Shown in pieces: positions 2,014 through 32,260 of a stretch of DNA of 32,260 nucleotides. Below the pieces are notes generated by a model that did no database searches, was not told the DNA's origin, and saw nothing but the letters and a program-made list of their open reading frames with translations. This DNA is from a virus, in the IMG/VR virus record IMGVR_UViG_3300049791_000044, positions 1 to 32,260 of that record; one strand, 5' to 3'. A program made the translations under genes and the position numbers. Each line of letters starts with the position of its first letter. The stretch's first letter is position 1.

Positions 2014-3575
2014 ACTCCTGTCGTCAGATCGGGCCGGAACCCGTGCTTGTCGACCTCCAGCGTGCGCGCGGTGAGGCCCGCTGATTTGATGATGCCGACG
2101 TGGGGCATCATCGTGGCGCTCGCCGGGATATTGCTCGCGTGCGTCGCGAGCAGCGTGCCGTTGAGGTAATGCTTCACCGACGTCGCCGCCGCATTCACCT
2201 CGGCCTCGTAGCAAACGAACGCCGACGCGCTCACGGGGTTCACTGACGACGCGAACACGGTGCCGGTTTCGGTGTTCGAATTTCGCGTGACGAGTTCGAG
2301 CAGCCCGCTGTTCGCCGAATGTGTGTACCTCGCGAAAACGCCACCGAACGGAGCCGCTGAGCCCGATGTCGTAGTGAATCCGACGATCGTTGTGAACGTG
2401 TTCGTGTCATCGCTCGCGGTCGGGATTCGGAAGTCGGCTCGGTAGCGCCAGATTCCGCCGCCGAACGTGAACATCGTGAAGTTTGGGATCGAGCTGCACG
2501 TGCCCGTGGTAGTCGTGCCCGTGCTGAGGACCGCGATGCCTGGTCGTCCGCTGGTCCCCGTGCCGTTCGACATTGCGGCGCCGGTGCCACCCGAGCTCGC
2601 CACGAACGGATTGCACGCGCCGTTCGCGACTCCGAGGTAGTCCGTGCATCCCGGCGCCTCGAACAGGCCCTTGATGAGTCCGTAGGACGGGAAGATCGCG
2701 AGCGGATCGAGTCGATTGATTTGCGCCGCTTGCGCCGCCGTCATGTATCCATCGACCGATACCGTAGCTGCCGGCATCGCGAACGTTCGGTTTGCGGAGA
2801 GGTCCCCTCCACCCGTGATCGGCGCCGTGGTCGAGATGGTCCGTGTGTTCGCGACGGCCGCGTTGAGTGCGGTTTTGTCCGCCCCGCTCATCAGCCCTGC
2901 GACGCTCGTCGTGGCAACGTCGATCGCGTCCGAGCCGTCGCCCTTGTGGCTCGCTGCGTGGCTCGTCGGCGTGCGCGCGTTCGTGACGCTCGCGTCGTTG
3001 CCGGGCAGCGCTTCGCCCGCCGCCGTGCCGAGCTTGCGGAGCGCGGGCGTGCCCGCCGATCCGCCCGATGGAATCGCAGCGACCGCGGCGGCGGCAGTCC
3101 CCGCGGGGTCCGCTCCCACCTGAGCGGCCGTCGTCGAATGCGGGTTGCTCGTGTTCGTGAGATGCGCGTCGAGGGCCGCCTTGTCGGCTGCGCTCATCGT
3201 GCCGCGCTGCCCCGACGTAGCAGCGGCAACGTCGAGGACGACGTTCGTTCCGTCGTCAGTCGCCGTCATCACGGAGCCGTCGACCTTGGCGTACGTCCGC
3301 TCGGCGAGGGTCGATGCGCCGTTCTTCCAGGTCGAGCCAGGTCCGCGAGCACCCGTCGATCCAGTGGCGCCGGTCGCGCCGGTCGCGCCCTGCGGACCGG
3401 TCTCGCCGATCGGACCTTGCTCGCCCATCTCGCCCCGCTCACCTCGCGGCCCCTGCGGTCCACGTCCACCGACGTCGATGGTCACGACGCGCGCGATGCC
3501 ACCCACGAGCATCGTTCCGCCGTCGGGGCGAACGATGCGGAGCACGGAGCGCGGCGCTGTGATCGAGAGCGTCAT
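2010..3575 (-). CDS. Tail fibre with collagen-like Gly-X-Y segment
   Basis: A 521-aa protein starting at the ATG at 3575, which overlaps the upstream stop (ATGA). After about 35 N-terminal residues there is a run of about 15 Gly-X-Y triplets (residues about 36-80, starting GRGPQGPRGERGEMG). This would form a triple-helical stalk as in other phage fibres. Around residue 128 the motif SAADKAALDAHL...NPHSTTAAQVGAD appears, a stretch often repeated in phage fibre shafts. The C-terminal about 200 residues are Ser/Thr/Gly-rich and beta-strand-like (GGIWRYRADFRIP; VKHYLNGTLLATHAS), consistent with a LamG/concanavalin-type receptor-binding tip. It probably forms a trimer. It is separated from the other fibre genes by the lysis cluster and may be a second, alternative receptor-binding protein. 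Confidence 0.8.
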   Translation of the reverse strand: MTLSITAPRSVLRIVRPDGGTMLVGGIARVVTIDVGGRGPQGPRGERGEMGEQGPIGETGPQGATGATGATGSTGARGPGSTWKNGASTLAERTYAKVDGSVMTATDDGTNVVLDVAAATSGQRGTMSAADKAALDAHLTNTSNPHSTTAAQVGADPAGTAAAAVAAIPSGGSAGTPALRKLGTAAGEALPGNDASVTNARTPTSHAASHKGDGSDAIDVATTSVAGLMSGADKTALNAAVANTRTISTTAPITGGGDLSANRTFAMPAATVSVDGYMTAAQAAQINRLDPLAIFPSYGLIKGLFEAPGCTDYLGVANGACNPFVASSGGTGAAMSNGTGTSGRPGIAVLSTGTTTTGTCSSIPNFTMFTFGGGIWRYRADFRIPTASDDTNTFTTIVGFTTTSGSAAPFGGVFARYTHSANSGLLELVTRNSNTETGTVFASSVNPVSASAFVCYEAEVNAAATSVKHYLNGTLLATHASNIPASATMMPHVGIIKSAGLTARTLEVDKHGFRPDLTTGV

Positions 3576-3907
3576 CGCGTGATCGCTCGCGCGACTTGAA
3601 TCTCGAACGTGTCGGTGTGCACGACGCCGGACGCGCTCGTGAATCGCACGTCGCAGTCGAGGACCGCGACCGGCCACGACGCGGTCATCGTCGCCGTCGC
3701 CGAGACCACGAACTGCCCGGGGTTCGTGGCTTGGTCGGCATCGGCCTCGCACGTGAGTTCGTCGACTGGCGTTTCCGCCGACGTGTCGCTTCGCCTGCGG
3801 ACCTGCGAGGCGATGGCGTAGCCGGTGAGGTCGACGGGCGCGCCACCAGACTCCCAGGTCATCGGGAGCGAGAACGTGTCGCCGGCTTTGATAGTGATCG
3901 CGGACAT
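3572..3907 (-). CDS. Small beta-rich phage structural protein, fibre/baseplate accessory
   Basis: A 111-aa protein starting at the ATG at 3907, which overlaps the amidase stop (TGATG). A GTG-type extension to 3937 would run into the amidase and is not needed. The sequence reads like a single beta-sandwich domain: AGDTFSLPMTWESGGAPVDL, then TGYAIASQVRR, then alternating strands with a DVRFTSASGVVHTDTFEIQV end. Short proteins with the GDT...G.PVDLTGY...R pattern are common next to phage fibre genes and resemble the N-terminal domain of baseplate upper proteins. It lies just upstream of the collagen-like fibre and may attach it. The exact role is inferred. Confidence 0.65.
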   Translation of the reverse strand: MSAITIKAGDTFSLPMTWESGGAPVDLTGYAIASQVRRRSDTSAETPVDELTCEADADQATNPGQFVVSATATMTASWPVAVLDCDVRFTSASGVVHTDTFEIQVARAITR

Positions 3908-4554
3908 CAGTACCCACCTGCCGATCGTCGATCCCACGAGCTAGGAATTGGTTTGCCGTCTCGGTCGGTGAGCGTGAGAAGCGGGGTCAGACCGATCACC
4001 TTCTCGCAATGGTCAATGCCGACCTTCTGCCAGATCGCCCAGCCCGGATCGGCTCGCCTGCTCGCGGCGTACTGCCGGTGCGCGACGTAGTGCTTGATCG
4101 TGATTCCCTCTTTCGCGGCCTCAGCAACGATGGCGCTACACGCCTCGCGCGCGGCGGCGATGAGAGACTCGGCGGGCTCCGCTCCGGTCCCGCTCGGCAG
4201 GCCGTTGTAGAACCCCTCGCACTCCAGGCCGATGCTCCGCGAGTTGGCGCCGTTGCCGTGGTAGACGTAGGCGCGCAACGGGTAGGCGAGCACCACGGTC
4301 CCGTCGATGAACGCGGAGACGTGCGCGTGAACGTTCAGCGCGCGACGATGACGAGCAAGATCCTTGTCACCCTTCGCTGCGTTGATCGCGGCCGTCGAAG
4401 CGCCGAGCGCGACCGCCATCTGATGGAGGCAGATCGAGTCGATCGCCGTCCGTTCGCGCACGACGAGATGGCCGTAGCGGTCGAGTTTCCCGGCGGGCTT
4501 TTCGCCCACGGGACCGGACGCCTTTTGCTGACTTCGCCAGTCGAGAACGCTCAT
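3907..4554 (-). CDS. Endolysin, N-acetylmuramoyl-L-alanine amidase type
   Basis: A 215-aa zinc amidase that would cut the bond between muramic acid and the stem peptide at the end of infection. Zinc-ligand candidates are His44 (ICLHQMA), His159 (YVAHRQ) and Asp169 in the RRADPG motif. The spacing matches the amidase_2/PGRP family, where the last motif is typically AHRQW..RRSDPG. The central SIGLECEG motif (about 107-114) also fits. There is no signal peptide, so it needs a holin to reach the wall. It starts at the ATG at 4554 with an ATGA overlap to the upstream membrane protein. It is embedded in a cluster of small membrane proteins that forms the lysis module. Confidence 0.88.
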   Translation of the reverse strand: MSVLDWRSQQKASGPVGEKPAGKLDRYGHLVVRERTAIDSICLHQMAVALGASTAAINAAKGDKDLARHRRALNVHAHVSAFIDGTVVLAYPLRAYVYHGNGANSRSIGLECEGFYNGLPSGTGAEPAESLIAAAREACSAIVAEAAKEGITIKHYVAHRQYAASRRADPGWAIWQKVGIDHCEKVIGLTPLLTLTDRDGKPIPSSWDRRSAGGY

Positions 4555-5686: not shown

Positions 5687-5967
5687 GAGCCACCTTCCAC
5701 GCGTTCGATCGAAGGCGTCGAGACCGTCTCCGGCTGCCGGCTGAGCCCGCCGCTTGAGGCCGTCGCGATGAACGTCGCCGTGACGTCGAGCCACGTCGCG
5801 AGGTCGACCAATCGCTGCGTCACCTTGTCGTCGCCCTTGTCGGCGGTGCTCTTGGCGTGCGCGTGGAGGTACGTCGCGAATCGACGCAGCCCGTGAGCCG
5901 CCGCGAGGATGAACGGCATGGCGACGGTGACCATCGCGAGCCAGTGTTCGATCTGTTGCTGAGTCAT
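5683..5967 (-). CDS. Holin candidate
   Basis: A 94-aa protein from the ATG at 5967, overlapping the upstream stop as ATGA. One clear membrane helix (about 9-32, LAMVTVAMPFILAAAHGLRRFATYL) is followed by a basic region and a second weakly hydrophobic amphipathic helix (LVDLATWLDVTATFIATASSGG). The size, a short N-terminus, one or two membrane helices and a charged C-terminal tail fit small phage holins. Its neighbours are a coiled-coil membrane protein and, some genes later, the amidase. The alternative reading is an antiholin or a different inner-membrane factor. Confidence 0.6.
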   Translation of the reverse strand: MTQQQIEHWLAMVTVAMPFILAAAHGLRRFATYLHAHAKSTADKGDDKVTQRLVDLATWLDVTATFIATASSGGLSRQPETVSTPSIERVEGGS

Positions 5968-6440
5968 GATCCGGCCTTCCCTGCGATGAATCCGTTTACC
6001 GAGTGAGTCGTGAGCCCGAGCGCTTCGCCCGCCCTGCGTAGGTGCGCGATCTCGGAAGCGGTCGGCGTGCGCGACGGATCGATCCGCGAGAGCATCCGTC
6101 CGAGGTCTTCGACGAGATTGGGCACGGCCGAGAGTCGCTCTTCCGCGTCGGCAAGCTTTGCGTTCGACTCGGCCAGCGCCGATTCCAGCGCCACGATCCG
6201 GCGCTCCATGCTGGCGAGGGTCGTGCGGTAGAGTTCGCGCTCGTGCGACACCATCTCGTCGACCTTGCCGCGTAGCCAACCCTCGTTCTCGCGCTGGGTC
6301 TTGTCGCGCGCGGCGATTCGATCGGCTTCCGCTGCCGCTTCGTCGCGGGCCTTTGCCGTGTACTTGCCGTACGCGTCGAGAAGGAACTTGAAGATGACGG
6401 CCATGGCCGATCCGTAGGCTGCGATTTCGGCGCCGGTCAT
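5964..6440 (-). CDS. Membrane-anchored coiled-coil protein, possible inner spanin (Rz-like)
   Basis: A 158-aa protein from the ATG at 6440 (TGATG overlap with the upstream stop). A short hydrophobic N-terminal segment (about 6-24, IAAYGSAMAVIFKFLLDAY) is followed by a long Ala/Glu/Arg-rich coiled coil (about 28-110, with heptad-like LESALAESNAKLADAEERL). The C-terminus (HLRRAGEALGLTTHSVNGFIAGKAGS) is globular and polar. An N-terminal anchor plus a periplasmic coiled coil is the architecture of the inner spanin that links to the outer membrane in Gram-negative lysis. The anchor is weak, so a cytoplasmic scaffold role cannot be excluded. Confidence 0.55.
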   Translation of the reverse strand: MTGAEIAAYGSAMAVIFKFLLDAYGKYTAKARDEAAAEADRIAARDKTQRENEGWLRGKVDEMVSHERELYRTTLASMERRIVALESALAESNAKLADAEERLSAVPNLVEDLGRMLSRIDPSRTPTASEIAHLRRAGEALGLTTHSVNGFIAGKAGS

Positions 6441-7258
6441 CAGTTCAGCCTCCCGCCGCTCGCGGTCGTGTTCGTGACGATCGTCGCGAGCACGCGCGCG
6501 CCCATTCGGAATTCGATGCGGCCTGGGACGTACCGGATCGTGACTTGGCCCGTCGCTTCAAGCTGAATCGGCGTGCCCGCGTTCATCCGGATCGGGCTGT
6601 TGCCGACGTCGAGGGCGACCTCGTGGACGCCCTCGATCCAGATCGCTCGCGTATCGTTTGACGTCGGCGCGAAGTGGATCCCGGTCAGCGAATGGCACTC
6701 GAAGCGCATGGCATCCGTGAAGCCCGCCGAGGGTTGCGATTGCAGATTGATCCCCTGCGGGGTCCAACCACCCGCTCGTCCCGCGTAGCTATCTGTGGCC
6801 TGGACGTTCACGCCGATCACGCGACCTGCGGCGAAACTCGTCGTCTCGACATTCACGCCGATAGTGGTGTTCGCGCCGTCGCCGATCGGCTCGGCATGAA
6901 TCGCCGCGCCCCATCCCGCGCCCTCGTTTCGCAGCCTCGCATTGAAGACGGTTGCGTCGCCGCGCGCGTGTCGCGTGCGGACCTCGGCGTAGACCGCCCA
7001 CGGGTGGACACCGAGCGACTCGTGGAGGTTTTCGAGGTAGACGCTCGATCCGGCGATCACGCCTGACATCTGCGCCTCGTCCGACGTGACTCCGCGCGAG
7101 AGCATCGTTGCCGCGTTGATCGGAACCGGGGTCTCGACGGTTCCGACGATCGAGTAGCGCGGCATCGGAGTCGAACCCGGAAGCGCGGTCATCGTCGGCA
7201 GGGCGTACGCGATCGACGCGACGAGCAGAACCGAGGCGATGGGGGCTGCGCGCTTCAT
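6440..7258 (-). CDS. Signal-peptide-bearing beta-rich protein, secreted adhesin-like or fibre-like
   Basis: A 272-aa protein from the ATG at 7258 (ATGA overlap). It begins with a textbook Sec signal peptide: MKR, a hydrophobic core (APIASVLLVASIAYA) and likely cleavage near residue 19-20 (AYA-LP). The mature part is rich in beta strands with repeated short turns (TTIGVNVETTSFAAGRVIGVNVQATDSY), as in beta-helical tail spikes and chaperone-free fibre tips. The C-terminus ends in strands (VTIRYVPGRIEFRMGARVLATIVTN). A signal peptide is odd for a virion fibre, which assembles in the cytoplasm. It therefore may instead be exported to the envelope of the infected cell or lysogen. Its place just after the fibre block and before the lysis genes fits either role. 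Confidence 0.7.
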   Translation of the reverse strand: MKRAAPIASVLLVASIAYALPTMTALPGSTPMPRYSIVGTVETPVPINAATMLSRGVTSDEAQMSGVIAGSSVYLENLHESLGVHPWAVYAEVRTRHARGDATVFNARLRNEGAGWGAAIHAEPIGDGANTTIGVNVETTSFAAGRVIGVNVQATDSYAGRAGGWTPQGINLQSQPSAGFTDAMRFECHSLTGIHFAPTSNDTRAIWIEGVHEVALDVGNSPIRMNAGTPIQLEATGQVTIRYVPGRIEFRMGARVLATIVTNTTASGGRLN

Positions 7259-7596
7259 TCTTCGACCGCCTTGATCCGGTCGCGCGCAACAACGTTACCC
7301 GTTCCATCCGGAGAGAGAACGAGCCAACCGTCGACGAGTTCAATGGGGACGGTCCACGTCTGCGTCCGCTCGTTCGGCAGGCCCATCGCCTTGTCGTGCT
7401 CTGCACAGCGAGCGTTGGCTTCGTCGAGCGTGCGGAACACATCGCCGCGCGGAATCCGCGCCTCATCCTCGCGAGAGAGTTGCGCGCTCTTCGCGGCTTC
7501 GCGTTCCGCGTGCGCTTCGACGTCCGCCTTGGTCGGCTCTTCGGCCGATCCGAGCGTCTCATCGTCGGGATCGAGCGGCTTAGTTGAGGACGCCAT
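7255..7596 (-). CDS. Small acidic protein following fibre gene
   Basis: A 113-aa protein. The ATG at 7596 is chosen, preceded by GGCGGGG and overlapping the end of the LamG-like gene by 17 bases. The N-terminal half is acidic and disordered-looking (SSTKPLDPDDETLGSAEEPTKADVEAHAERE). The C-terminal half has a compact fold (WTVPIELVDGWLVLSPDGTGNVVARDRI). There is no Cys, membrane span or signal. Position suggests a fibre chaperone or fibre-associated protein, but there is no family match to rely on. Confidence 0.6.
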   Translation of the reverse strand: MASSTKPLDPDDETLGSAEEPTKADVEAHAEREAAKSAQLSREDEARIPRGDVFRTLDEANARCAEHDKAMGLPNERTQTWTVPIELVDGWLVLSPDGTGNVVARDRIKAVEE

Positions 7597-8356
7597 AATA
7601 CCCCGCCAAGTACATGTTGACCGCAAGCATTTGCTCGGATGTCAGCGCAGCGTTGCAGATCATGAGTTCTCCGAAAGTGAATGCGGCGTACGCAGATGTG
7701 CCGGCCTTGGCGGCCCCGAGGCACATCTGCTGATTGGCGAGCGTCGATCCGGTCGACGCGTTCGTGCCAGCGGCCCCCACGAGCCCCAGACGTCCGCGAC
7801 CGTCCCATACCGTCGCGCCGCCATTCGCCAGCGTGCCGGACCACGAGTAGATGCGCGGGGCGTTGGCGGCTTGGTCCGCCTGCGTCGCGGTCATGACCCA
7901 CGCGGAGTTGGTGGCTGCGGGGTTGCTGTAGAGCACCGACAAATTCGCGGTCACGCCTTGCGTGATGCGTACCGACTGTGCGTCCGACGAGTTGCCGATC
8001 GACAACGGCTGCGCGGTGACCCCCGGCGTCGCCATGCTGCGAGTCACGAAGAAGATCGTGATCGCACTCATCGCCCCGATGCCGGGCGACGCGACGGTCA
8101 GCGCATCGTCGATCCCGTCGAACGTGATCGAGTCGCGCCCGCCCATGTTCGCGTCGGCGGCGTTGAACGTGGGTTGCTTCGATCCGGTCGCCTGCGTGAG
8201 GTTGACGCTGCCCTTTTTGTCGGTGAGTTGCGAGACGCCCGTGCCGATCGTTTTCGTGTCCGCTCGCCACCAGCTGGTCAGGTTCGGGACGTCGGTCGAC
8301 GGCGTGTACGAGCCGTACTGGGAGGCCCATTTCCTGATCGTGTTCGACGACGTCAT
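7580..8356 (-). CDS. LamG/concanavalin-like receptor-binding or fibre tip protein
   Basis: A 258-aa protein from the ATG at 8356, coupled to the preceding fibre stop by ATGA. It shows the usual pattern of the laminin-G-3/ConA-like fold: LTSWWRADT at about 26-34, QLTDKKGSVNLTQATGSKQPTF, then DSITFDGIDDALTV and ITIFFVTRS, and a final MICNAALTSEQMLAVNMYLAGYYG motif. This pattern occurs in phage fibre tips and bacterial sugar-binding proteins. A small N-terminal part (SNTIRKWASQYGSY) may attach it to the fibre encoded just upstream. It probably acts at the tip of the tail fibre and decides host range. Confidence 0.75.
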   Translation of the reverse strand: MTSSNTIRKWASQYGSYTPSTDVPNLTSWWRADTKTIGTGVSQLTDKKGSVNLTQATGSKQPTFNAADANMGGRDSITFDGIDDALTVASPGIGAMSAITIFFVTRSMATPGVTAQPLSIGNSSDAQSVRITQGVTANLSVLYSNPAATNSAWVMTATQADQAANAPRIYSWSGTLANGGATVWDGRGRLGLVGAAGTNASTGSTLANQQMCLGAAKAGTSAYAAFTFGELMICNAALTSEQMLAVNMYLAGYYGVLN

Positions 8357-9636
8357 CCGACGACCAGCCAGTTCGTGCCGTTGCTCTCGAACGTCCACGA
8401 GAGCTTCATCGCCGACGCCGACCCGAGGCAGAGGTACGTCCCTGCGGTGCCGTCGATCTGTTCGGACGCGTTCTGGGCGAGAGAGATCGTGTTTGCGTCG
8501 GCGGTCGTCTTCTTGATCTTGAAGCGTCGTCCGGCGGTCGCGGGGGATGGCGCGGTGTGCGTGATGTTGCCCGCCGTAGTGTCGGTCGGAATGAGCACGT
8601 CGGTCGCGGCGATCGAGTGGTTCGCGGTCTTTGTCGCGGTGATGCCAGCAACCGCTTCGCCCGCGAGCAGATCGAGCAACGTCTGCGGCGCCTTGTGCGT
8701 GTGATCGCCCGGCGCGAACTGCACCGACGAGCCGGCGGATCCGGCCGTTGCAGAGATGGCTGCGGGAGTCGAAGTGTACGCCTGGCGTAGCGACTCGGTG
8801 CCCTGCGCGGCGGATTGCACGGCGGCCGCGATCTTCGCGAGGGTGATCGCCGAGTTCGCAATACCAGCCGTTGCGATCGTCCCGAAGCCCAGCGTCCCGC
8901 CGCTCTCGCGAAGCACCGCGTCGGTCCCGTTCGTCGTCGAGATGTCCGCGACGTCGCCCGTGGAGTTTGCGCTTCGGCCGATGATGCTGAGCGCCACGCC
9001 CTGCGCGAGTTTTGCTCGCGTGATGAGGTTGTTCGCGATCATCCCGATCGTGAGCGCCGTCCACGCGATCGCGCCCGCGACGCGCCCAAGGAACGTGTCG
9101 TTCGATCCGGATACGAGGTCCGCGAGGGTTCCGCTCTGCGAGACGGGGACAGACAGCGACGCGTGACCCGAAGGCACGACGCCGCCGATCGCCGCGTTGA
9201 TGACGCCCCACGTATCCGCGCCGTCCGTGGTGACGATGTAGAGGCCCGTAGCGAACGCAACCTGAGCGCCCGCCGCGCCGCCGTTGACGTAGCCCGTCGT
9301 CGGGTAGCCGTCGGGCTGGAGCGAGACGCCGCCGGGGGCGTAGAGGATGCGGACCGCCCTGTTGCCGGTGGGGGGTGGGAACTGGAAATAGTCGGCCGCG
9401 ACCTGCCAGAACGACGCGTCGAGATCGAGGATGCCGGCGGAGGCGTAGACGGTGGGATTTGTGAGGGAGCCGGAGGCGATCAGATCGGCGAGAGGAGAGC
9501 CCGACTCAGCAAACAACTCGGCGATGTCAGAAAGCAGGACCTTCCGCGCGCTCGACCCGTTGCTGATCATCGCGTACTGCGCGAGCATGGGCGCCGCCGA
9601 CGCGGTGAACCCGTCCGGGAATGCTTTGTCGGTCAT
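8353..9636 (-). CDS. Tail fibre protein
   Basis: A 427-aa protein from the ATG at 9636 (ATGA overlap with gp48). The N-terminus (DKAFPDGFTASAAPMLAQYAMISNGSSARKVLLSDI) resembles the baseplate-attaching region of phage fibres. Long Ala/Ser/Thr/Gly-rich strands fill the shaft. GDHTHKAPQTLLDLLAG (about 299-315) is a recurrent fibre shaft motif. The C-terminus (RRFKIKKTTADANTISLAQ, then TYLCLGSASAMKLSWTFESNGTNWLVVG) matches the end domain frequently found in phage fibres. Gene order baseplate gp47, 255-aa protein, gp48, fibre is as expected downstream of a Mu-like baseplate. Confidence 0.85.
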   Translation of the reverse strand: MTDKAFPDGFTASAAPMLAQYAMISNGSSARKVLLSDIAELFAESGSPLADLIASGSLTNPTVYASAGILDLDASFWQVAADYFQFPPPTGNRAVRILYAPGGVSLQPDGYPTTGYVNGGAAGAQVAFATGLYIVTTDGADTWGVINAAIGGVVPSGHASLSVPVSQSGTLADLVSGSNDTFLGRVAGAIAWTALTIGMIANNLITRAKLAQGVALSIIGRSANSTGDVADISTTNGTDAVLRESGGTLGFGTIATAGIANSAITLAKIAAAVQSAAQGTESLRQAYTSTPAAISATAGSAGSSVQFAPGDHTHKAPQTLLDLLAGEAVAGITATKTANHSIAATDVLIPTDTTAGNITHTAPSPATAGRRFKIKKTTADANTISLAQNASEQIDGTAGTYLCLGSASAMKLSWTFESNGTNWLVVG

Positions 9637-10996: not shown

Positions 10997-12057
10997 GGGA
11001 TGGCCGAGAACGTCACGAGGGACGCGTTGAAGGTCGGGATTTCAAGGACGGTCGCCGCGACAACGTCAGCAGATGGTGCGACGAGCACGTGGTCGGTCTC
11101 GCCCGTTGCCGCCGAGATCGCCTCGTTGATGTGCGAGAGCAGGAGCGTCCCGCCTGGCGTGGCCTCGCGACGGTGGAGGCCGGCGAGGGATGCGAGGATT
11201 GCGGCCTCGGTCGCGCTCGACGGGTACGGAGCGATCTGAATGTCGTACGTGACGTCCGCCGACGTCGGTGCGTAGGCGGTGAAGTCGCGCAGCACGGCGG
11301 GCCGGAGCGGATCGACGTAGTCCTGCACCGCCGTGACGTCGCCGCCGCTCGGGATCGGGTCGACGGCGTCCATCGTGAACACGATCGCGATCGTGCCGTC
11401 GCCGTCGTAGTCGACGAGCACGGCAACGGTTGCGATGTCGACGCCGGGGGTCGCCTTCGCCCACGCCTCGTAGTCCGCCTCGGAGCCGCCACGCGGGGGC
11501 GCCTCCATGCGGTCGAGCAGTCGCTGTTTCAGGTCATCGATCGTTTCGAGATCGGAGCCGCCCGTGATGTCGTCATCGATCGTGAACGCGGAGTCGATGC
11601 CCGAGATCGGAGATACCAGGGTCCACGTCGCGCCCGCATCGCAGTTCGTCGTGGACGCGTAATCCACAGACGTGATCGCTACGGTGACGACGCCGCCCGA
11701 CACCGTGGCGTCCGCGTCGACCGTGAACCGCGTTCCGTCATCGAGCGCGCCGATCGTGCCCGCCGGGATCGTCGTTCCGTTCGTGCCGGTCCCGCTCGCA
11801 AAGCCCGGCGCCTGCGTCGGCTGCTTGCGCGTGAGCCCGAACATCGTCGCCCATGCGGTGACGATTTCCTCCGACGTTGCCGTCGCAGGGGTAGCCTGGC
11901 GCGATGCCCATCCGATGTGCCCATGGAGGGAATGGGACACGGCTGAGATGGCTCGCGAGAGGGCGCGCTCGAATGAACGGCGCAGCGAAGCCGCAGGACC
12001 AAGGTCGTTGATCACGCGGGCGATGATTTGGGCGAGGGTCGGGACGGGATACGTCAC
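10993..12057 (-). CDS. Baseplate wedge protein, Mu gp47 / P2 gpJ-like
   Basis: A 354-aa protein from the GTG at 12057 (GTGA overlap with gp46). It has the baseplate J-like layout: an N-terminal helical region (about 1-80, LAQIIARVINDL), a beta domain beginning around PGFASGTGTNGTTIPAGTIG (about 83-102), the typical ETIDDLKQRLLDRMEAPPRGGSEADYEAWAKATPGV segment (about 171-206), and a C-terminal part with VQDYVDPLRPAV. These proteins form the baseplate wedges with gp46 and gp48 and trigger sheath contraction. Its length is as expected for Mu gp47. Confidence 0.92.
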   Translation of the reverse strand: MTYPVPTLAQIIARVINDLGPAASLRRSFERALSRAISAVSHSLHGHIGWASRQATPATATSEEIVTAWATMFGLTRKQPTQAPGFASGTGTNGTTIPAGTIGALDDGTRFTVDADATVSGGVVTVAITSVDYASTTNCDAGATWTLVSPISGIDSAFTIDDDITGGSDLETIDDLKQRLLDRMEAPPRGGSEADYEAWAKATPGVDIATVAVLVDYDGDGTIAIVFTMDAVDPIPSGGDVTAVQDYVDPLRPAVLRDFTAYAPTSADVTYDIQIAPYPSSATEAAILASLAGLHRREATPGGTLLLSHINEAISAATGETDHVLVAPSADVVAATVLEIPTFNASLVTFSAIP

Positions 12058-12512
12058 GCGTCACCTCGCAGGACAAGCCACGGGCCGAAGGGCTTCGGGT
12101 TCCGCTCGTTCGGCGCCGCGATGTCGACGGCGAGATAGAGTCCGCGCACGCCTGGGATGGCCGATCGAATGTCGGCGGTGACTTCGATCTTCGACGCGAG
12201 GCCGTCAGCGAGCATCCACGCGAGCGCCTCTTCGGCGTACTGCTTCAGCTTGACCTTCGTCGACTGAATCAGCTTCGCGCGGCGCAGGAGCCAGATGCGC
12301 GATCCCCAGACGTCGCCGTCGCCGAGCGAGTCGGCCCAGTAGCCGCTCGGATCTTGCGCTGGAGTGACGTCGCCATCTCGCGCGGGCGCGTCGCAGAAGA
12401 GCGACAGCGACACCATCGTTTCGAGATCGCCATCCGGGACGTCAACGAGCGATGAGCCGGTAACCGTGAGGTCCGACTCGGCCAGAGTCTCGTCGAGGCG
12501 CAGCGCGAGCAC
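12054..12512 (-). CDS. Baseplate protein, Mu gp46 / GP46 family
   Basis: A 152-aa protein. The only sensible start is the GTG at 12512, since an in-frame stop lies two codons upstream. It matches the GP46 family: an initial LRLDETLAESDLTV region, ETMVSLSLFCDAPARDGD, then the family hallmark GYWADSLGDGDVWGSRIWLLRRAKL (about 58-81) and EALAWMLADGLASKIEVTADI. It acts in the baseplate with gp45 and gp47. It is separated from gp45 by the accessory cassette, although the two are neighbours in Mu. A copy of the 14-bp repeat lies just upstream. Confidence 0.93.
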   Translation of the reverse strand: MLALRLDETLAESDLTVTGSSLVDVPDGDLETMVSLSLFCDAPARDGDVTPAQDPSGYWADSLGDGDVWGSRIWLLRRAKLIQSTKVKLKQYAEEALAWMLADGLASKIEVTADIRSAIPGVRGLYLAVDIAAPNERNPKPFGPWLVLRGDA

Positions 12513-12532
12513 GCCTCATGGATGCGTGGCCG

Positions 12533-12546
12533 GGTCATTAGCGGTC
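12533..12546 (-). repeat. 14-bp repeat, copy 1 (GGTCATTAGCGGTC)
   Basis: This exact 14-mer lies between the lipoprotein gene and gp46. On the minus strand it reads GACCGCTAATGACC and contains an ATG (12538) that would start a different frame from gp46. It abuts a perfect palindrome TCCACGTGGA (12545-12554). The flanks differ from the other copies except for a GC-rich left flank. Confidence 0.85.
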
Positions 12547-26234: not shown

Positions 26235-26795
26235 GGGCGGGGTCTCCAATGCATCCGCCGTCGCGGGCTCGTCGGTCATCGACGCCGCGATCGGGGTGAG
26301 GTTTTTGGTGGCGGGCAGGTTCGTCAGCGCCGCGTTGATCACGCGTGTGATCCGGCGATTCGGCGCTTCACCACTCGTCAGGAAGTACGGACTCGTGTAG
26401 CGCCACTCGCGATCGGCGAGAGCCTTCGCGGCTTGCGGCGTGTACCGAACGTCAACGGCCCACAGTTCGCCGTTGCGAACGTCGAGCTTGAACCAACCGG
26501 CCGCAACTCGATCGCGAGGCCCCGAGAACGGGTCGGCCATCGCGTGGTCGTAGTCGAGCGGGAGGTCGTTCCCCTGGTCCGCGAACGCAGCCACCGTGTC
26601 GGCTGCGGCCTGCGCGTCGAAGAGAAAGACGCCCTTGCTCGTGGCGTTCTGCCCAGCGCGGAACAGACGAAACTCGGTGAGCGGCGCGCCCGAATCGTCC
26701 GCAAGCGCGATCGGCACCGAGAGCGTTACTCGGTCGTCGGAGGCGTTTCGGCTGGCGTGTTGATTCACTGCCCTACTCGTCCCCGGCCAGGTCAT
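25716..26795 (-). CDS. Head maturation protease with C-terminal scaffold, Mu gpI-like
   Basis: A 359-aa protein from the ATG at 26795, which lies inside copy 2 of the 14-bp repeat. The N-terminal protease part shows the gpI pattern: PLDYDHAMADPFSGPRDRVAAGWFKLDVRNGELWAVDVRYTPQAAKALADREWRYTSPYFLT (about 79-140). The DYDH motif at 81-84 and the downstream A-A-G-W and Y-T-S-P-Y-F motifs are conserved in the family. From residue 188 a helical Glu/Ala/Lys-rich scaffold follows and ends in a SIARMLGLTEAQALANKKISLGG motif. A nested start there would give a separate scaffold. It acts in procapsid assembly and cleavage. Start choice: a ribosome site is weak, so the true start could be slightly later. 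Confidence 0.9.
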   Translation of the reverse strand: MTWPGTSRAVNQHASRNASDDRVTLSVPIALADDSGAPLTEFRLFRAGQNATSKGVFLFDAQAAADTVAAFADQGNDLPLDYDHAMADPFSGPRDRVAAGWFKLDVRNGELWAVDVRYTPQAAKALADREWRYTSPYFLTSGEAPNRRITRVINAALTNLPATKNLTPIAASMTDEPATADALETPPMKTLLVALGLGADASEAEALSALQKHEGERQRLFALTGKSTLGEAEAQVIAWKIGAENGAKAEEALSAFKKTQVDAEANGLIDAAVKDGKLPPADKATVLSQYQAHGIDVLKFALSLLKPVVNTTQSPAPLVPVGEGSAATLSAEDKSIARMLGLTEAQALANKKISLGGAA

Positions 26796-26803
26796 TAGCG
26801 GTC
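26790..26803 (-). repeat. 14-bp repeat, copy 2
   Basis: GGTCATTAGCGGTC lies between the portal stop (26814) and the protease. The ATG in its minus-strand reading GACCGCTAATGACC is the start of the 359-aa protease. It shares three more bases (CCA) to the left with copies 3 and 4. Confidence 0.9.
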
Positions 26804-26813
26804 GAAAAGAAAT

Positions 26814-28115
26814 TCACTTCGGCGCCTCGACGGGCGGCGAATCGGCCGGTGCAGAAGCGGCTTTCGCGCGCAGGAGTTTCGGCGGCAGCTCGTCGCCCTT
26901 CGGCGTGGGCGGGTCCGGCAAGCCGAGCCGGTCGCGCACAACGCTCTGTTCGACCTCGCCGCCGAGCTCGACGAACGCTTTGACGTTCGTCATGTACGCC
27001 GTCTGCTCCGCTGGTGTGCGGATGACGTATTCGAGGCTCGGGACTTCGACGTCGGGGCCGTAGTTGAGGCGCACGAACGGCGTGATGATGTCGCGCTCGA
27101 TCGTGGCGCAGACGGCGCGCGCATCGGCCCGCGTGAGCGTCAGTTCCTTGCGCTCGTGGACCTCGGCCTGCGACATCGACGCGCCGTTCTCGGTGGTCAT
27201 CGTCTGGCCGAGCACGAGCTTCGAGCACTCGGAATTGAGCCAGTTCACGAACGGGAGGAACGAGTCGTTCGCGCCCGCGCCGCCCTTGCGCTCGACGAGT
27301 GTGATCGCCATCGACTTGGGGATCGTGCAACCGGCGTCGGTGCCCATGTTCGTGATGGCTGTCGCGAGCACCGCTTGCTGTTCCGGCGTCGCGTTGTCGT
27401 CGTACGTGCCGACGCGAATCGGCATTCCGTACTGCTCGAGGAACGCCATGAGGTCGCGAATCGAGAACGACTGGAGCATCCACAGCGTCACGGCGCTGCG
27501 TGCGAGTCCGCCGCGTCGCGATGGTCCGCTCCGAAGCTGCGGCGCGTGAACGGCCCACTTGTACGGGGCGAGCGGCTCGCCGTTCGGGTGCGCGTCGGTA
27601 CGCAAGAGCGGAACCGAGAGCGTCTCCGGGTCCCACGCGAAGTGCCGCTGTTCACGCCACGAATACGTTGCGGGCGTCCACGTATTCGCGTCGGTCTTCC
27701 AACCGATCTCGACGAACGAGATCCCCTTGCCGAGGCCGTCGAGAAGATCGAAGACGAGCGTCTCGAATTGCGGCTGACCGATGAGCGCCCGAACCGCGTC
27801 GGCGACCTTCTGGTCTCGTCGCTTGTCGGTCGATGCGCAGACCGCGATTTCGCTCCCGCTGACGGCCTGCTTGCGGCCACGAAGAACAGCGTCGTAGTGC
27901 GGGTATCGCTCCTCGATCTCCTGGGCGAGCGTGAAATACGCGTCGGTGTCGCCGTTGTCGGCGTTGCTGAGGAGCGTACCGAGCCGGCGAGGGTTGATGC
28001 TCGACGCCTGGCTATCGCGGTACGGGGAGCGAATCCCCGTGATCGTCGATCCGCCGCGCTCGACCTTCAGGTCAGCGGTGCGAACCGGTTCGCCGCGATG
28101 GTCGTAGAGCACCAA
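26814..28115 (-). CDS. Portal protein, Mu gp29-like (DUF935)
   Basis: A 433-aa protein. The first possible starts are TTG 28115 and GTG 28112, since an in-frame TGA precedes them. DUF935 hallmarks: SSINPRRLGTLLSNADNGDTDAYFTLAQEIEERYPHYDAVLRGRKQAVSG (about 38-87), the WREQRHFAWDPET segment, PYKWAVHAPQLRSG, RSAVTLWMLQSFSIRDLMAFLEQYGMPIRVGTYD (about 206-239), and SKLVLGQTMTTENGASMSQAEVHERKEL (about 304-331). It forms the 12-mer vertex channel for DNA. The gene is bracketed by copies 2 and 3 of the 14-bp repeat. No MuF-type gene follows, although it does in Mu. Confidence 0.95.
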   Translation of the reverse strand: MVLYDHRGEPVRTADLKVERGGSTITGIRSPYRDSQASSINPRRLGTLLSNADNGDTDAYFTLAQEIEERYPHYDAVLRGRKQAVSGSEIAVCASTDKRRDQKVADAVRALIGQPQFETLVFDLLDGLGKGISFVEIGWKTDANTWTPATYSWREQRHFAWDPETLSVPLLRTDAHPNGEPLAPYKWAVHAPQLRSGPSRRGGLARSAVTLWMLQSFSIRDLMAFLEQYGMPIRVGTYDDNATPEQQAVLATAITNMGTDAGCTIPKSMAITLVERKGGAGANDSFLPFVNWLNSECSKLVLGQTMTTENGASMSQAEVHERKELTLTRADARAVCATIERDIITPFVRLNYGPDVEVPSLEYVIRTPAEQTAYMTNVKAFVELGGEVEQSVVRDRLGLPDPPTPKGDELPPKLLRAKAASAPADSPPVEAPK

Positions 28116-28133
28116 TCACGGCATGGCGGGCCA

Positions 28134-28147
28134 GGTCATTAGCGGTC
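28134..28147 (-). repeat. 14-bp repeat, copy 3
   Basis: GGTCATTAGCGGTC lies between the TerL stop (28151) and the portal start. Its minus-strand ATG (28139) opens a seven-codon ORF, MTWPAMP, whose TGA ends at 28116, directly adjacent to the TTG start of the portal. This may couple portal translation to the repeat. Confidence 0.9.
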
Positions 28148-28150
28148 ACG

Positions 28151-29680
28151 TCACAACGCGCCGCCGCCGCCTCTCCAGCCGTAGCCGGAGCGGACCGGGC
28201 GCGTGGCGTGGCTTGCGTCGGTACGCTTGGCGGCGTCGTAGGCGTAGGCGGCGGCCGGATGCATCGCGAAGTAGTTCAGCGCCTGGCTCGTGCAGTCCAC
28301 CTGGTCATCGTTCGCGCCACGCGGGAAGCGAAGGTGCTCCTGTTGGTAGTCGCTCACCCACGGATGCTCAGGGCCGGGCTCGGGGATGTAGACGTTCCCG
28401 GCCGCGTAGAGTGGCGAGGTAGCGTGTGCGCGCGCCTGCTTGCCGCCGTGCGGTTCGATCGGGATCATCCCACTCACGGTCCTCGCCAGCGCGTTCATGA
28501 CCGCCGTGCCGTTCGCCTTGTCCTCCACGAGCTTCGCGGTCGCCGTTGGCCACTTCGCGGCGAACGCCTTGAACGCATCGCACGTCTCGGTGAACGTCCA
28601 CTGCCCGCGCACCTGGTCGAGCAAATAGAAGCGAGAACCGATGCGCGCCCACGCCTCGATCACCACATAGTCGCTCGTCGCCTCGCCCTTGAATGTGCAG
28701 TCGAGCGAGAGAACGACTTGGGCGCCGCGAAGGTCCGGACGAATCGTCCAATATCGCCAACCATCCATCTTGAACAGCGCACCCGAGTCCGGGACGGGGT
28801 TCTGCTGTAGTTGTGCGGATGCGTGGATCGGGCCGAGCTTCACCTCGAGTTTTGCGACGTCTGATTCGGGGAACCGCTCTGGCCACAGCATCGTCTCGCC
28901 CGACTCAGCACGGGGGTCGACGCCACGCGGAATCGACACGAGGTTCGGGTCGTATCGCATCGGGATGCGCAGTCGCCGGTATCCCTCGCTCGCGAGACGT
29001 CCCGGAACATCAACGTCGTGGAGCCGCTGGGCGATCACGAGGTTGCGCGTTGTCGTCGGGTTCGCGCGTCGGGTCGACATGCCGACGTTCCAAAACGTGT
29101 GCGACTTGTCAAATGCGGCGCCAGCTTCGTCGCTGCCCGTGTAGGCATCTTGCACGCGGTTCGGATCGTCGAACACAAGTGTGTCCGCGTGTCGACCCGT
29201 GGCGACGCCGCCGACCGACGTCGAAAAGCGGAAACCCTTCTGCGCCGTCTCGAACATCCGCACCTGCTGAAGCTGGCCCTCGCCGATCGAGCACTTGTCG
29301 CCCCATCGATCTCGAAACCACTCCGAAGCCACGAGGTCGCGGTGCCGCTTGGCGTCGCGGTCGCTGAGATCCTGCGCGTAGGTCGCGAAAATGAATTTGT
29401 GGCCCGGGTCGTTGATCCAGACCCATGCCGGGAAGAACACCGCCGCCGTGAGCGACTTCATGCACCCGGGCGGAACCTCGATGAGCAGGTCGAGGATTTC
29501 GAGTCGGTGAAGCGCCTCGAGGTGCTCGCAGATGAGGCCGACATGCCAGTTCGACATGTAGCGAGCGGGTTCGACCTGCGCCCACGCGAGCTCGACGAAC
29601 TTCAAGAGGCCGCCCGCTTTCACGTCCTCTTGGTCGAGGGCGATCAACGCATCGTGTGCGCTGACGTCGAGGCTAGGCAC
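28151..29680 (-). CDS. Terminase large subunit, Mu gp28-like
   Basis: A 509-aa DNA-packaging motor and nuclease, from the GTG at 29680, which overlaps TerS by eight bases. ATPase: Walker A PPGCMKS (70-76) and Walker B TLVFDDP (167-173), with the VGGVATGRHAD loop before it. Nuclease: acidic residues Asp327 (SLDCTFKG), Glu386/Asp387 (LVEDKANG) and Asp458/459 (GANDDQVD). The C-terminal residues (about 470-509) are Gly/Arg/Ala-rich. With Walker A lacking the usual second Gly before Lys (GCMKS), it follows the Terminase_6-like class. It docks on the portal to pump DNA. Headful versus cos packaging cannot be read from here. Confidence 0.95.
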   Translation of the reverse strand: MPSLDVSAHDALIALDQEDVKAGGLLKFVELAWAQVEPARYMSNWHVGLICEHLEALHRLEILDLLIEVPPGCMKSLTAAVFFPAWVWINDPGHKFIFATYAQDLSDRDAKRHRDLVASEWFRDRWGDKCSIGEGQLQQVRMFETAQKGFRFSTSVGGVATGRHADTLVFDDPNRVQDAYTGSDEAGAAFDKSHTFWNVGMSTRRANPTTTRNLVIAQRLHDVDVPGRLASEGYRRLRIPMRYDPNLVSIPRGVDPRAESGETMLWPERFPESDVAKLEVKLGPIHASAQLQQNPVPDSGALFKMDGWRYWTIRPDLRGAQVVLSLDCTFKGEATSDYVVIEAWARIGSRFYLLDQVRGQWTFTETCDAFKAFAAKWPTATAKLVEDKANGTAVMNALARTVSGMIPIEPHGGKQARAHATSPLYAAGNVYIPEPGPEHPWVSDYQQEHLRFPRGANDDQVDCTSQALNYFAMHPAAAYAYDAAKRTDASHATRPVRSGYGWRGGGGAL

Positions 29681-30101
29681 CGGTCTTCGTGGCCTTGGTC
29701 AGGAGGGCGCGCATCGCGTCGCGCTCCTCCTGCGAGAGGCCGGAGACGTCGAGGCCGGAATGCTTCACGGTCGCGTCGACCTTCGTCTTCGATGCGGGCG
29801 ACCACTTGCCTTGGAAGCGACGCTCTAGCATCCATTGGGCCGATCGCGGGTCGCTCGACGCGGATGTGTGGATGGTCCTCACCATCGCGATCTCGGCCTC
29901 GGCGACGGCTTCGTCGAGCGCGTTTGAGAAGTCCGTGTAGCGGCTCGTCTCGGGGTTCTCGCGGGCGTCTGCGCGCCAAGCCTTGATCGTCGAGTACGAG
30001 ATGCCCACCGACATGGCAGCCGTCGAGATGGGCACGCAAATGCGAACGAGCGCCAGCATGGTGGCGACGTTTTCCGGCGTGAGTTTCGTGACGTTAGGCA
30101 T
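29673..30101 (-). CDS. Terminase small subunit
   Basis: A 142-aa protein from the ATG at 30101. The N-terminus (LALVRICVPISTAAMSVGISYSTIKAWRADARE) is a helix-turn-helix of the kind that recognises the pac/cos site. A helical middle (YTDFSNALDEAVAEAEIAMVRTIHTSA, DPRSAQWMLERRFQGKW) is typical of TerS oligomerisation. The RxFxxKW motif is common in TerS of phages with this TerL type. It overlaps TerL by eight bases. The ribosome site is weak. A 22-codon ORF (30094-30162) overlaps its start and may couple it to the gene upstream. Confidence 0.88.
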   Translation of the reverse strand: MPNVTKLTPENVATMLALVRICVPISTAAMSVGISYSTIKAWRADARENPETSRYTDFSNALDEAVAEAEIAMVRTIHTSASSDPRSAQWMLERRFQGKWSPASKTKVDATVKHSGLDVSGLSQEERDAMRALLTKATKTGA

Positions 30102-30151: not shown

Positions 30152-30322
30152 TCACCTTCCACGAGCCTGCCCCTCCGCCTCGTGGTCGGTCACATGCCAC
30201 CCGTTGCAGTCCTCGCATCGGTACACCCGCAGCCGGTTCGCCACCCCAGCCGTTGCGCGCTTGGCCAGGCGAGCGGACGTCCACCGCACCTTGCCCGTCG
30301 TCTCGCATCGTCGCCGGTCCAT
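30152..30322 (-). CDS. Small phage zinc-type protein
   Basis: A 56-aa protein with ribosome site GGAGG eight bases before the ATG at 30322. The sequence MDRRRCETTGKVRWTSARLA and the later RVYRCEDCNGWHVTDHEAEG has Cys6, Cys36, Cys39 and His43. The pattern C...R.....A......L.VYRC..C.GWHVT is a common small phage protein with a probable zinc ribbon. It is too short for automatic detection in many settings. The function is unknown; the neighbours are packaging genes. Confidence 0.75.
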   Translation of the reverse strand: MDRRRCETTGKVRWTSARLAKRATAGVANRLRVYRCEDCNGWHVTDHEAEGQARGR

Positions 30323-30323
30323 C

Positions 30324-30446
30324 TCACCCTCCTACGATCCCAGGTGGCGTCGCGTACCAGCGGGAGTGTCTCGCTTCGGCCTCCGGCCTCGCATCGACTA
30401 CCGGAGAGAGATTCGAGTGTAACGATCTCGTCGTGCCCCAGGTCAT
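30324..30446 (-). CDS. 40-aa ORF starting in the 14-bp repeat
   Basis: The ATG at 30446 lies inside copy 4 of the repeat, where it shares the A of the upstream stop (TAATG). The stop TGA (30324-30326) lies one base before the next ATG, inside GGGTGAGATG. The product (MTWGTTRSLHSNLSPVVDAR and 20 more residues) is not recognised and lacks a membrane span or Cys. The tight coupling on both sides is the evidence. It may also serve mainly as a translated spacer. Confidence 0.45.
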   Translation of the reverse strand: MTWGTTRSLHSNLSPVVDARPEAEARHSRWYATPPGIVGG

Positions 30447-30454
30447 TAGCGGTC
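30441..30454 (-). repeat. 14-bp repeat, copy 4
   Basis: GGTCATTAGCGGTC overlaps the stop of the 142-aa zinc-ribbon gene and the start of the 40-aa ORF (TAATG junction on the minus strand). The flanks CCA (left) are shared with copies 2 and 3. Confidence 0.9.
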
Positions 30455-30874
30455 AACGTTGGGCCTTTGGCGTTTCCGTAATTCCTCTTGGATCTTCGCG
30501 TTGTCGGACTGGAGCCGGCGAAGGTTCTCAGCTTCGGTGACCGTCCGCTCGAGGAGTTCGTCGATCCTCCGCGAGCTCGCGTCGATGTCGTCTCGGATGC
30601 GCTTCATGGTCCCCTCGTCGTATGCGCGTCTGCATCGCGCGCTCCTGCATCCCGTCGAGAGTCCGTGAACCACGTCATGCTCCCAGGCCATCCGCTCGTG
30701 GCCGCATACGCACCGAACGACGATCCGCCGTTGCCACTGCATCCCGTGAGCCCCACGGCTGCGTTGTGCTGGCGTTGCAAGCCGGACGATCGTCCAGCGC
30801 CACACACGCTGGCCCTTCGCCACCTTCGACGGCCTGACCTGCGGGTCTCCGGTCTCGATGTTGCCAAGGCTCAT
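30446..30874 (-). CDS. Zinc-ribbon / coiled-coil protein
   Basis: A 142-aa protein from the ATG at 30874 (ATGA overlap with the second sigma factor). After a segment GQRVWRWTIVRLATPAQRSRGAHGMQWQ, four Cys occur in RCVCGHERMAWEHDVVHGLSTGCRSARC (about residues 55-81). This matches the common phage zinc domain with the form CxCG....GxxxxC..C. A C-terminal helical part (IDASSRRIDELLERTVTEAENLRRLQSDNAKIQEELRKR, about 97-136) is a coiled coil for dimerisation. It may bind nucleic acid or RNA polymerase. It stands directly after two sigma factors and may work with them. Confidence 0.7.
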   Translation of the reverse strand: MSLGNIETGDPQVRPSKVAKGQRVWRWTIVRLATPAQRSRGAHGMQWQRRIVVRCVCGHERMAWEHDVVHGLSTGCRSARCRRAYDEGTMKRIRDDIDASSRRIDELLERTVTEAENLRRLQSDNAKIQEELRKRQRPNVDR

Positions 30875-31392
30875 CGATTCCCCCTCATCATCGCCCTACG
30901 AATCTTCCCCTTCGCACTCCCCTCAGCCTGCCTCACCATCTGCCGCGTGAGCCCGAGCGAGTCGGCCGTCTCGTTCTGCGTCGCGCCCTCGCCGAAGAAC
31001 CGCAGATCGATGACCGCCCGCTCTCGAGCCGTGAGTGATGCGCCGGCAATCGCGAGGGCCACGGTCGCAACGCGGCTCGCCGCTTCCTGGGCGTCTCGCA
31101 AGCGGCTCTCTGGCGTCTCGTGGTCCATGCGCTCGGGCATCTCGCCTCGGAGCGCCATGGCCCCCGGGGACGCCGGCAATCGCACGGGACCCGAGTGCTC
31201 GCGCTGGTAGTTCGCCATGGCCCACCGGATGCGCTTGACCGCGAATCGCTTGAAGCCGATCGGCCCGGGGATGTACGCGTCCGCCGCTGCCATGATCGCG
31301 ATGGCTCCCTCTTGCGCGAGGTCGTCACGGAGGTGGCCGTAGCGTCGGGCTTGCTTGGCTGCGAGCGGGAGGTGGTCGAGGACGAGGGTCAT
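30871..31392 (-). CDS. Sigma-70-family factor 2 (phage-encoded)
   Basis: A 173-aa protein from the ATG at 31392 (ATGA overlap with the first sigma factor). Region 2 is in about 5-65: LPLAAKQARRYGHLRDDLAQEGAIAIMAAADAY, then GFKRFAVKRIRWAMANYQRE. Region 4 is in about 120-170: LTARERAVIDLRFFGEGATQNETADSLGLTRQMVRQAEGSAKGKIRRAMM, a helix-turn-helix for the -35 element. Region 3 is absent, as in short ECF-like or phage sigma factors. It differs strongly from its neighbour, so the pair does not look like a recent duplicate. A longer open frame to 31971 is antisense-like noise inside the first sigma gene. Confidence 0.85.
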   Translation of the reverse strand: MTLVLDHLPLAAKQARRYGHLRDDLAQEGAIAIMAAADAYIPGPIGFKRFAVKRIRWAMANYQREHSGPVRLPASPGAMALRGEMPERMDHETPESRLRDAQEAASRVATVALAIAGASLTARERAVIDLRFFGEGATQNETADSLGLTRQMVRQAEGSAKGKIRRAMMRGNR

Positions 31393-32120
31393 GCCGCAAC
31401 CGCTCCGATCATGTCCCACGTTGCCGCGAGCGACTTGCGAAGCCGGGCCCTTGCCTTCGCTTCGATCTGGTGGACCGCCTGCCGTGAGACGCCGAGGTCG
31501 GCCGCAATCGATTCGAGCGTCTCGTCTTCCTCGCCCATCCATCGGCGTTCGGCGATGACGCGCCACCGTTCGGGCAGTCGGGCGAGCGCCTCTTGCACAT
31601 CGCGGATCGCGATCGCTCGGCACTCCTCGCGGCTCAACCGACCTTCCGCGTGCTCGTGTTCGACGCACCAACGCTCGGCGGCTCCAGTGTCGATCGCGAC
31701 GTCGGCGCCAGACTGCACCGCCCAGATGAACGCCGCTGTGGCTGGTCGCGAGTTGAGCAAGGTCGCGAGTTGCTCGGGGCTCGTCGCGTGGCCCGATCGA
31801 ATCAGGCCGAGACCGCGCGTGAACTGCGAGTTGCGCGGCACGACGATCACGCGCCCGGACCGGAAGTATTCGCGTTGCACGTTCGCTCGGACGTAGTGCT
31901 GCGCGTAGGTGAGGAATCGGTTTCCCGACGCAGGGTCGAACCGCTCCGATGCTTCGATGAGCCCAATGCATCCGGCCTGGAGATAGTCGGCGTACCGGAC
32001 GGAGTTGTTTCGCGCGTAACGCCGCGCGAACTTGTGCGCGAGCGGGATGTGGGCGACGACCACGGCAGAGCGATCGCCTGCCGCAAAAAGCGCCTGCTCT
32101 TGCTCGCGAGAGAGGCTCAC
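31389..32120 (-). CDS. Sigma-70-family factor 1 (phage-encoded)
   Basis: A 243-aa protein. The GTG at 32120 is chosen over 32129 because it overlaps the upstream stop as GTGA, with GGTGGGGG before it. Region 2 is in about 20-90: VVVAHIPLAHKFARRYARNNSVRYADYLQAGCIGLIEASERFDPASGNRFLTYAQHYVRANVQREY, the classic core-binding and -10 pattern. Region 3 is in about 95-150. Region 4 is in about 180-232: LPERWRVIAERRWMGEEDETLESIAADLGVSRQAVHQIEAKARARLRKSL. It is more like RpoH/RpoD-type factors than ECF types. It probably directs host RNA polymerase to phage promoters. Confidence 0.9.
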   Translation of the reverse strand: MSLSREQEQALFAAGDRSAVVVAHIPLAHKFARRYARNNSVRYADYLQAGCIGLIEASERFDPASGNRFLTYAQHYVRANVQREYFRSGRVIVVPRNSQFTRGLGLIRSGHATSPEQLATLLNSRPATAAFIWAVQSGADVAIDTGAAERWCVEHEHAEGRLSREECRAIAIRDVQEALARLPERWRVIAERRWMGEEDETLESIAADLGVSRQAVHQIEAKARARLRKSLAATWDMIGAVAA

Positions 32121-32260
32121 CGCCCCCACCTACTCACCACGCCATCGTTGACCACGAGCGCTCCCGCCAAGGTCCGCAGCGGCTTCGCGGGTTCGGGCGT
32201 CGCGGTCCGTTCGACGCGCGGCTTCGGGGTGCCGTCTCGCGTGAGCATGGAGGCGTTCGG
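32117..32260 (-). CDS. Small ORF upstream of sigma factors (truncated at window edge or starting at 32248)
   Basis: An ATG at 32248 gives a 43-aa product (MLTRDGTPKPRVERTATPEP and 23 more residues, ending VVSRWGR). The frame is also open to the window edge, so it may be the end of a longer gene. Its TGA (32117-32119) overlaps the sigma start as GTGA, which supports both. The sequence is Pro/Arg-rich and not recognised. Confidence 0.5.
   Translation of the reverse strand, partial: PNASMLTRDGTPKPRVERTATPEPAKPLRTLAGALVVNDGVVSRWGR

Follow-up and report, generated by a model that had tools for sequence, protein, structure and literature searches.

Two overlapping sigma-70 genes before the packaging genes of a phage contig with a Mu-type head module

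Gene layout at the locus

The window analysed here is the whole of an IMG/VR viral contig, 32,260 bp long with a GC content of ~66%, and the genes considered below are located as follows.

248-1552, plus strand: tyrosine integrase, at the far left end and transcribed against the late genes
12054-12512, minus strand: baseplate wedge gene, preceded by copy 4 of the junction motif described below
26814-28115, minus strand: Mu-type portal (Pfam Portal_Mu, 5e-91)
28151-29680, minus strand: terminase large subunit (Pfam Terminase_6C; phrog_38, 1.2e-86)
29673-30101, minus strand: terminase small subunit (phrog_4102, 2.2e-17)
30152-30322, minus strand: small 56-aa protein carrying a CxxC pair; a member of phrog_15216, whose function is unknown
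30446-30874, minus strand: Cys-rich gene, 142 aa, with CxCG...C...C and a helical, coiled-coil-like part
30871-31392, minus strand: sigma factor 2 (sigma 2), ATG start, 173 aa, regions 2 and 4 only
31389-32120, minus strand: sigma factor 1 (sigma 1), GTG start with GTGGGGG upstream, 243 aa, regions 2, 3-like and 4
32117-32260, minus strand: ORF truncated by the contig end, of which the C-terminal 47 codons remain, from sequence reading and codon-position GC

A single strand carries, in order, sigma 1, sigma 2, the Cys-rich gene, terminase, portal, head, tail and amidase genes, and this minus strand includes a Mu-type head and contractile tail module with portal, protease, major head protein gpT, sheath and baseplate. 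The integrase makes it probable that the phage is temperate; the contig, which ends 140 bp upstream of sigma 1, seems to be missing the early region. Near the amidase gene, a long ORF on the minus strand (2010-3917) has a collagen-repeat-like stretch that scores slightly below the Pfam cut-off, and is possibly a fibre protein or partly mis-framed.

The initial annotation had described two sigma-70-type reading frames that overlap by ATGA ahead of the packaging genes. Both frames are present as described, with the terminase small and large subunit genes directly downstream; the 56-aa phrog_15216 gene, which falls below size cut-offs, separates the sigma cluster from the gene for the terminase small subunit. 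The sigma 1/sigma 2 junction (...GCGGCATGACC...) is an ATGA overlap, the start of the Cys-rich gene overlaps the end of sigma 2 by the same four bases (ATGA), and the TGA of the contig-end ORF overlaps the GTG of sigma 1 (GTGA). Coupling extends beyond the pair as first described to include one gene before it and one gene after it. By codon-position GC both sigma frames are coding, with GC3 of 0.78 for sigma 1 and 0.84 for sigma 2. The open frame upstream of the sigma 2 ATG is non-coding by the same measure (GC3 0.52), so sigma 2 truly begins at ATGA, and a 366-aa ORF from 31971 was rejected as a longer form of sigma 2 because its upstream part has non-coding codon-position GC. Neither host-type -35/-10 promoters nor terminators were found near the sigma pair. 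The Cys-rich protein, which the initial annotation named as a possible third partner, is encoded within the coupled operon; it matches no family in Pfam, PHROGs or NCBIfam.

Domain content of the two proteins

Four libraries and the structure models agree that the locus encodes two distinct, translationally coupled sigma-70 factors, as originally proposed. In Pfam, sigma 1 matches Sigma70_r2 (E=3.9e-12) and r4 (5.3e-12), and sigma 2 matches r4 (2.5e-12) and r2 (1.9e-6). Bit scores for sigma 1 and sigma 2 respectively are 46.2 and 28.0 against region 2, the part for core and -10 binding (PF04542, cut-off 24), 45.5 and 46.5 against region 4, the helix-turn-helix for -35 binding (PF04545, cut-off 24.1), and 83.0 and 65.1 against the NCBIfam sigma-70 superfamily model TIGR02937 (cut-off 42.9). 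Both also match the RNA polymerase sigma factor family phrog_351, at 8.4e-31 and 1.3e-20. In a search of the PDB, RpoS chains align with sigma 1 across 215 residues (E 2e-18) and RpoH chains are found as well, while the matches of sigma 2 are more remote (best E 2e-4).

AlphaFold models, for which some 50-60 viral sigma factors were aligned, place domains 2 and 4 in each protein, with confident helices in both (pLDDT blocks mostly 90-98). A fold search of the PDB pairs sigma 1 with sigma-S and sigma 2 with sigma-32, in RNA polymerase complexes, at a probability of 1.00. Whole-chain TM-scores are at most 0.4 for both models because the domains are flexibly joined and their placement is not fixed, and the fold evidence is therefore to be read at the level of domains.

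Sigma 1 resembles the sigma-32/sigma-S type. Group 3 sigma factors (sigma-32/28 type) are marked by a region 3 that separates regions 2 and 4 and by the absence of region 1.1. In sigma 1, region 3 is modelled as weak helices (residues 96-107, 115-121 and 126-137, pLDDT about 40-68) and has no Pfam region 3 match, and at 243 aa the protein is too short for region 1.1. It scores 91.4 bits against the RpoH equivalog model TIGR02392, below the cut-off of 323. Sigma 2 is a region-3-less relative with regions 2 and 4 only, as in ECF (group 4) sigma factors; against the ECF-type region 4 model PF08281 it reaches 14.2 bits, below the cut-off of 25.7, and matches PF04545 instead. The initial annotation had allowed that one of the two might be a modified anti-sigma or co-factor, and had given as grounds for refuting a sigma pair that one of them lacked core-binding or DNA-binding ability and belonged to another family. 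We found no evidence for any of this: domains 2 and 4 are kept in both, and on this domain content we reject the reading of either sigma as an anti-sigma factor.

Where primary-type sigma factors have a WW pair, used for -10 melting, sigma 1 has HY and sigma 2 has KR. The recognition helix of region 4.2 reads SRQAVHQ in sigma 1 and TRQMVRQ in sigma 2, as against TRERIRQ in primary-type sigma. The promoter-reading residues are unlike those of host or housekeeping sigma factors and unlike each other and, because the contact residues of regions 2.4 and 4.2 differ, we infer that sigma 1 and sigma 2 differ in promoter specificity.

A repeated motif at late gene junctions

A 14-bp sequence, GACCGCTAATGACC, which extends to GACCGCTAATGACC(T/C)GG, occurs in exactly four copies, all on the late strand and all at gene junctions.

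30438-30454, minus strand: copy 1, GACCGCTAATGACCTGG, ahead of the terminase genes and spanning the stop codon of the Cys-rich gene
28131-28147, minus strand: copy 2, at the terminase large subunit/portal junction
26787-26803, minus strand: copy 3, at the portal/head protease junction, covering the ATG first called for the protease
12530-12546, minus strand: copy 4, GACCGCTAATGACCCGG, before the baseplate wedge gene

It is the sole sequence of at least 14 bases repeated at least three times in the window, and has no near misses there at up to three mismatches; at the same tolerance the 17-mer matches shuffled sequence 0.24 times on average. Four of the five TAATG words on the late strand lie within the motif. 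All four copies lie near a stop codon, for which the chance is about 2e-6 by position alone and before the common strand is counted, a rough figure that depends on the gene calls and on a distance window set after the sites were seen. In three copies the motif is 15-18 nt from a start codon or covers it, so close that leaders would be very short. In these three, a GTG stands 17-18 nt from the motif, a weak regularity of spacing noticed post hoc. No conserved second box was found upstream of the motif, although both sigma factors keep region 4. Outside the contig, the motif has no match at three mismatches in one relative (L004, terminase 72% identical) and chance-level matches in another (L006). 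Among 2.9 million viral contigs there is one exact match (L150), which falls within an unrelated phage's coding frame and is for that reason taken as chance.

The junction motif may be a late promoter element read by one of the sigma factors, as tAATGTAtA is in phiEco32 (PMC8948821). The lack of a second box and the nearness of start codons speak against a promoter. The main rival to this promoter reading is that the motif is the site of a repressor (a stoperator) or of another phage protein, which we regard as a real possibility that nevertheless falls short of even likelihood. Stoperators of the L5 type are 13 bp long and asymmetric; they lie in short gaps between genes and are oriented with transcription (PMC9283540). 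The motif is likewise asymmetric, is 14-17 bp long, keeps one orientation and sits at stop/start junctions, and the phage has an integrase. However, there are only four copies, and none of the genes on the contig was recognised as a repressor, though one may lie in the missing part of the genome.

Relatives and origin of the pair

The association of a sigma gene with the terminase genes recurs in one distant relative, IMGVR_UViG_3300010373_000940 (L133; GC 65%). Its stretch from 5884 to 8857 holds, in order, a single sigma gene (263 aa), a 68-aa gene that begins with an ATGA overlap, a short gene and the terminase large subunit, the last being 41% identical over 492 aa to the present one. Region 2 of the L133 sigma is 40% identical to that of sigma 1. 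As here, the sigma gene stands directly before the terminase genes and is followed by an ATGA overlap, but L133 has one sigma factor where the present phage has two, and the repeated junction motif was not found in 12 kb of L133. The L006 phage, whose terminase is 45% identical, has no sigma gene upstream of it. The sigma-terminase pairing is thus real in two phages but not general. A scan with the aligned sigma 1 and L133 sigma returned L133 as the sole match, and among the matches listed for 62 large ORFs downstream of sigma genes (48 loci) there is at least one to another PHROG terminase family (phrog_2).

No close relative was found for sigma 1 or sigma 2, cellular sigma factors included. 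The best match of sigma 1 is ~30% identical along its length, and its matches are mostly cellular-type sigma factors. For sigma 2, tblastn against phage and plasmid records gave region 4 only (E 0.1-10) and nothing full-length, and exact peptide patterns of either protein retrieved no close relatives from viral contigs. A single GTDB match (L032) and four matches labelled as phage (L038, L040, L041 and L152) were rejected as phage relatives, being cellular sigma genes. The L038 and L152 records (CAKLQH020000004 and MW495066, labelled Acinetobacter phage and Microcystis phage) carry ordinary chromosomal genes, namely rpoH with thiG, and ribosomal proteins and ispH; both seem to be bacterial contigs entered under phage names.

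Sigma 1 and sigma 2 share 27% identity on the aligned columns of regions 2 and 4, no closer than to other sigma factors, and 32% over 84 aa in the region 4 flank. Sigma 2, searched with phmmer against about 110 sigma ORFs, has its top match in sigma 1 at 42.8 bits, the next reaching 31.3. In a tree of regions 2 and 4 (62 rows) both lie on long branches with no supported sister relation, and sisterhood is not rejected either. A tree forcing the two together is not rejected and outscores the free quick tree (p-AU 0.657, a test limited by the long branches).

These relations bear on two further readings. In the first, only sigma 1 is the late sigma factor, and sigma 2, a shortened duplicate, either acts as a partner or decoy, competing for core and modulating sigma 1, or is decaying. 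The tandem place, the common region 4 flank, the phmmer ranking and the joint tree would all fit such an origin, but we think it unlikely that sigma 2 has this limited role, as its open frame, high GC3 (0.84) and start coupling indicate selection, its regions 2 and 4 are intact, and its identity to sigma 1 is no higher than to other sigma factors. In the second, each gene was acquired on its own from a host or phage source, one serving the late genes and the other host takeover or host state in the manner of sporulation-like phage sigma factors. The long separate branches and the differing domain make-up are consistent with this, and phage sigma factors acting on host programmes are known (PMC9429907); strict translational coupling, however, suggests joint use, sisterhood is not rejected and neither protein has a close cellular relative, and we rate this reading, too, as rather improbable. 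As far as the tree is concerned, duplication and separate capture both remain compatible with it.

That one of the sigma factors or the Cys-rich protein is an anti-sigma factor is very improbable: anti-sigma genes often follow their sigma gene, as rseA follows rpoE, and the Cys-rich gene occupies that place, but both sigma factors have regions 2 and 4, and the Cys-rich protein is without a library match and has a Cys/His spacing that does not fit HxxxCxxC, the pattern of zinc anti-sigma factors.

Discussion

The overlapping sigma pair before the packaging genes, together with four exact junction signals, points to a late-gene switch run by the phage itself. We consider it probable that both proteins are working phage sigma-70 factors, expressed from one coupled operon, that redirect the host core enzyme to late promoters with two specificities. 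Sigma 1 and sigma 2 would be made together from this operon, and each would displace the host sigma on host core RNA polymerase, steering the polymerase to phage promoters that the host sigma reads poorly. The main targets would be the genes of the late module (packaging, head, tail and lysis), which starts directly downstream, and the two factors would read different promoters within the phage. Support for a late-gene role comes from L133, with its sigma gene just ahead of the terminase genes, and from the four junction motif copies. Phages phiEco32 and 7-11 offer a precedent, their phage sigma promoters being distributed along the late genes (PMC8948821). A more specific version of this late-gene switch is speculative and, taken as a whole, unlikely: here the coupled pair would form a two-step or mixed-holoenzyme switch in a temperate myovirus, one factor would read GACCGCTAATGACC(T/C)GG as a single-element late promoter heading each sub-module, and the Cys-rich protein would modulate the outcome.

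Phage sigma factors are mostly single, and the best-studied examples come from lytic phages. With a coupled pair in the late-regulator slot and an exact repeated candidate target, this small integrase-bearing phage would allow sigma exchange, promoter specificity and late timing to be tested in vitro within one compact system.

Phages phiEco32 and 7-11 are lytic and are not known to carry an integrase. In both, a phage sigma acts with host core to transcribe the late genes from several dedicated promoters along the late cluster (PMC8948821). The phiEco32 element tAATGTAtA and the 7-11 element GTAAtg share TAATG/TAAtg letters with the junction motif, a likeness short enough that it may be chance, and each of these phages has one sigma factor where the present phage has two.

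The sigma pair occupies the position just before terS that in some other temperate phages is the slot of RinA/ArpU late activators. RinA, as in phage phi11, activates the late operon in temperate phages and has its binding site in a repeat region immediately ahead of terS (PMC9867676). RinA/ArpU activators are not sigma factors with region 2, whereas both proteins here have regions 2 and 4, and in the search for RinA/ArpU homology phrog_36 was matched by sigma 1 alone, at its region 4 end (1.8e-4). SPO1 likewise uses two phage transcription factors, gp33 and gp34, for late promoters (PMC3601020); these provide one joint function, in contrast to the present pair, where regions 2 and 4 occur in both proteins.

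The view in the initial annotation that phages rarely encode sigma genes side by side is borne out, with precedents. In a survey of 4,350 phage genomes, 86.6% had no sigma gene, 11.7% had one, 1.1% two and 0.7% three (PMC9429907). Among ~99 IMG/VR sigma loci, which were picked by similarity to sigma 1 and so form no census, two have a second sigma gene within about 6 kb (L069 and L128) and none has an overlapping one. In L128 (4432-6711) one strand carries both genes with ~480 bp separating them, and region 4 of the second is unusual; L069 (1522-5846) holds an integrase-like recombinase and two sigma genes ~2.4 kb apart. The closest parallels are in the Herelleviridae, where two sigma-70 genes are adjacent as they are here: Moonbeam gp164/165 and Eldridge gp171/172 of Bacillus phages lie on the same strand, and the neighbouring genes gp108/109 of Bc431v3 encode sigma F/B and G types (PMC3601020). 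These pairs differ in belonging to ~160 kb Bacillus phages, in having longer proteins and in having no terminase within a few kb, and the Moonbeam and Eldridge genes are ~130 bp apart rather than overlapping by four bases. The present phage has Mu morphology, an integrase and a sigma pair directly before the packaging genes. Adjacent sigma pairs are therefore already known as an occasional feature of phages, and the overlapping pair before the packaging genes is a new arrangement.
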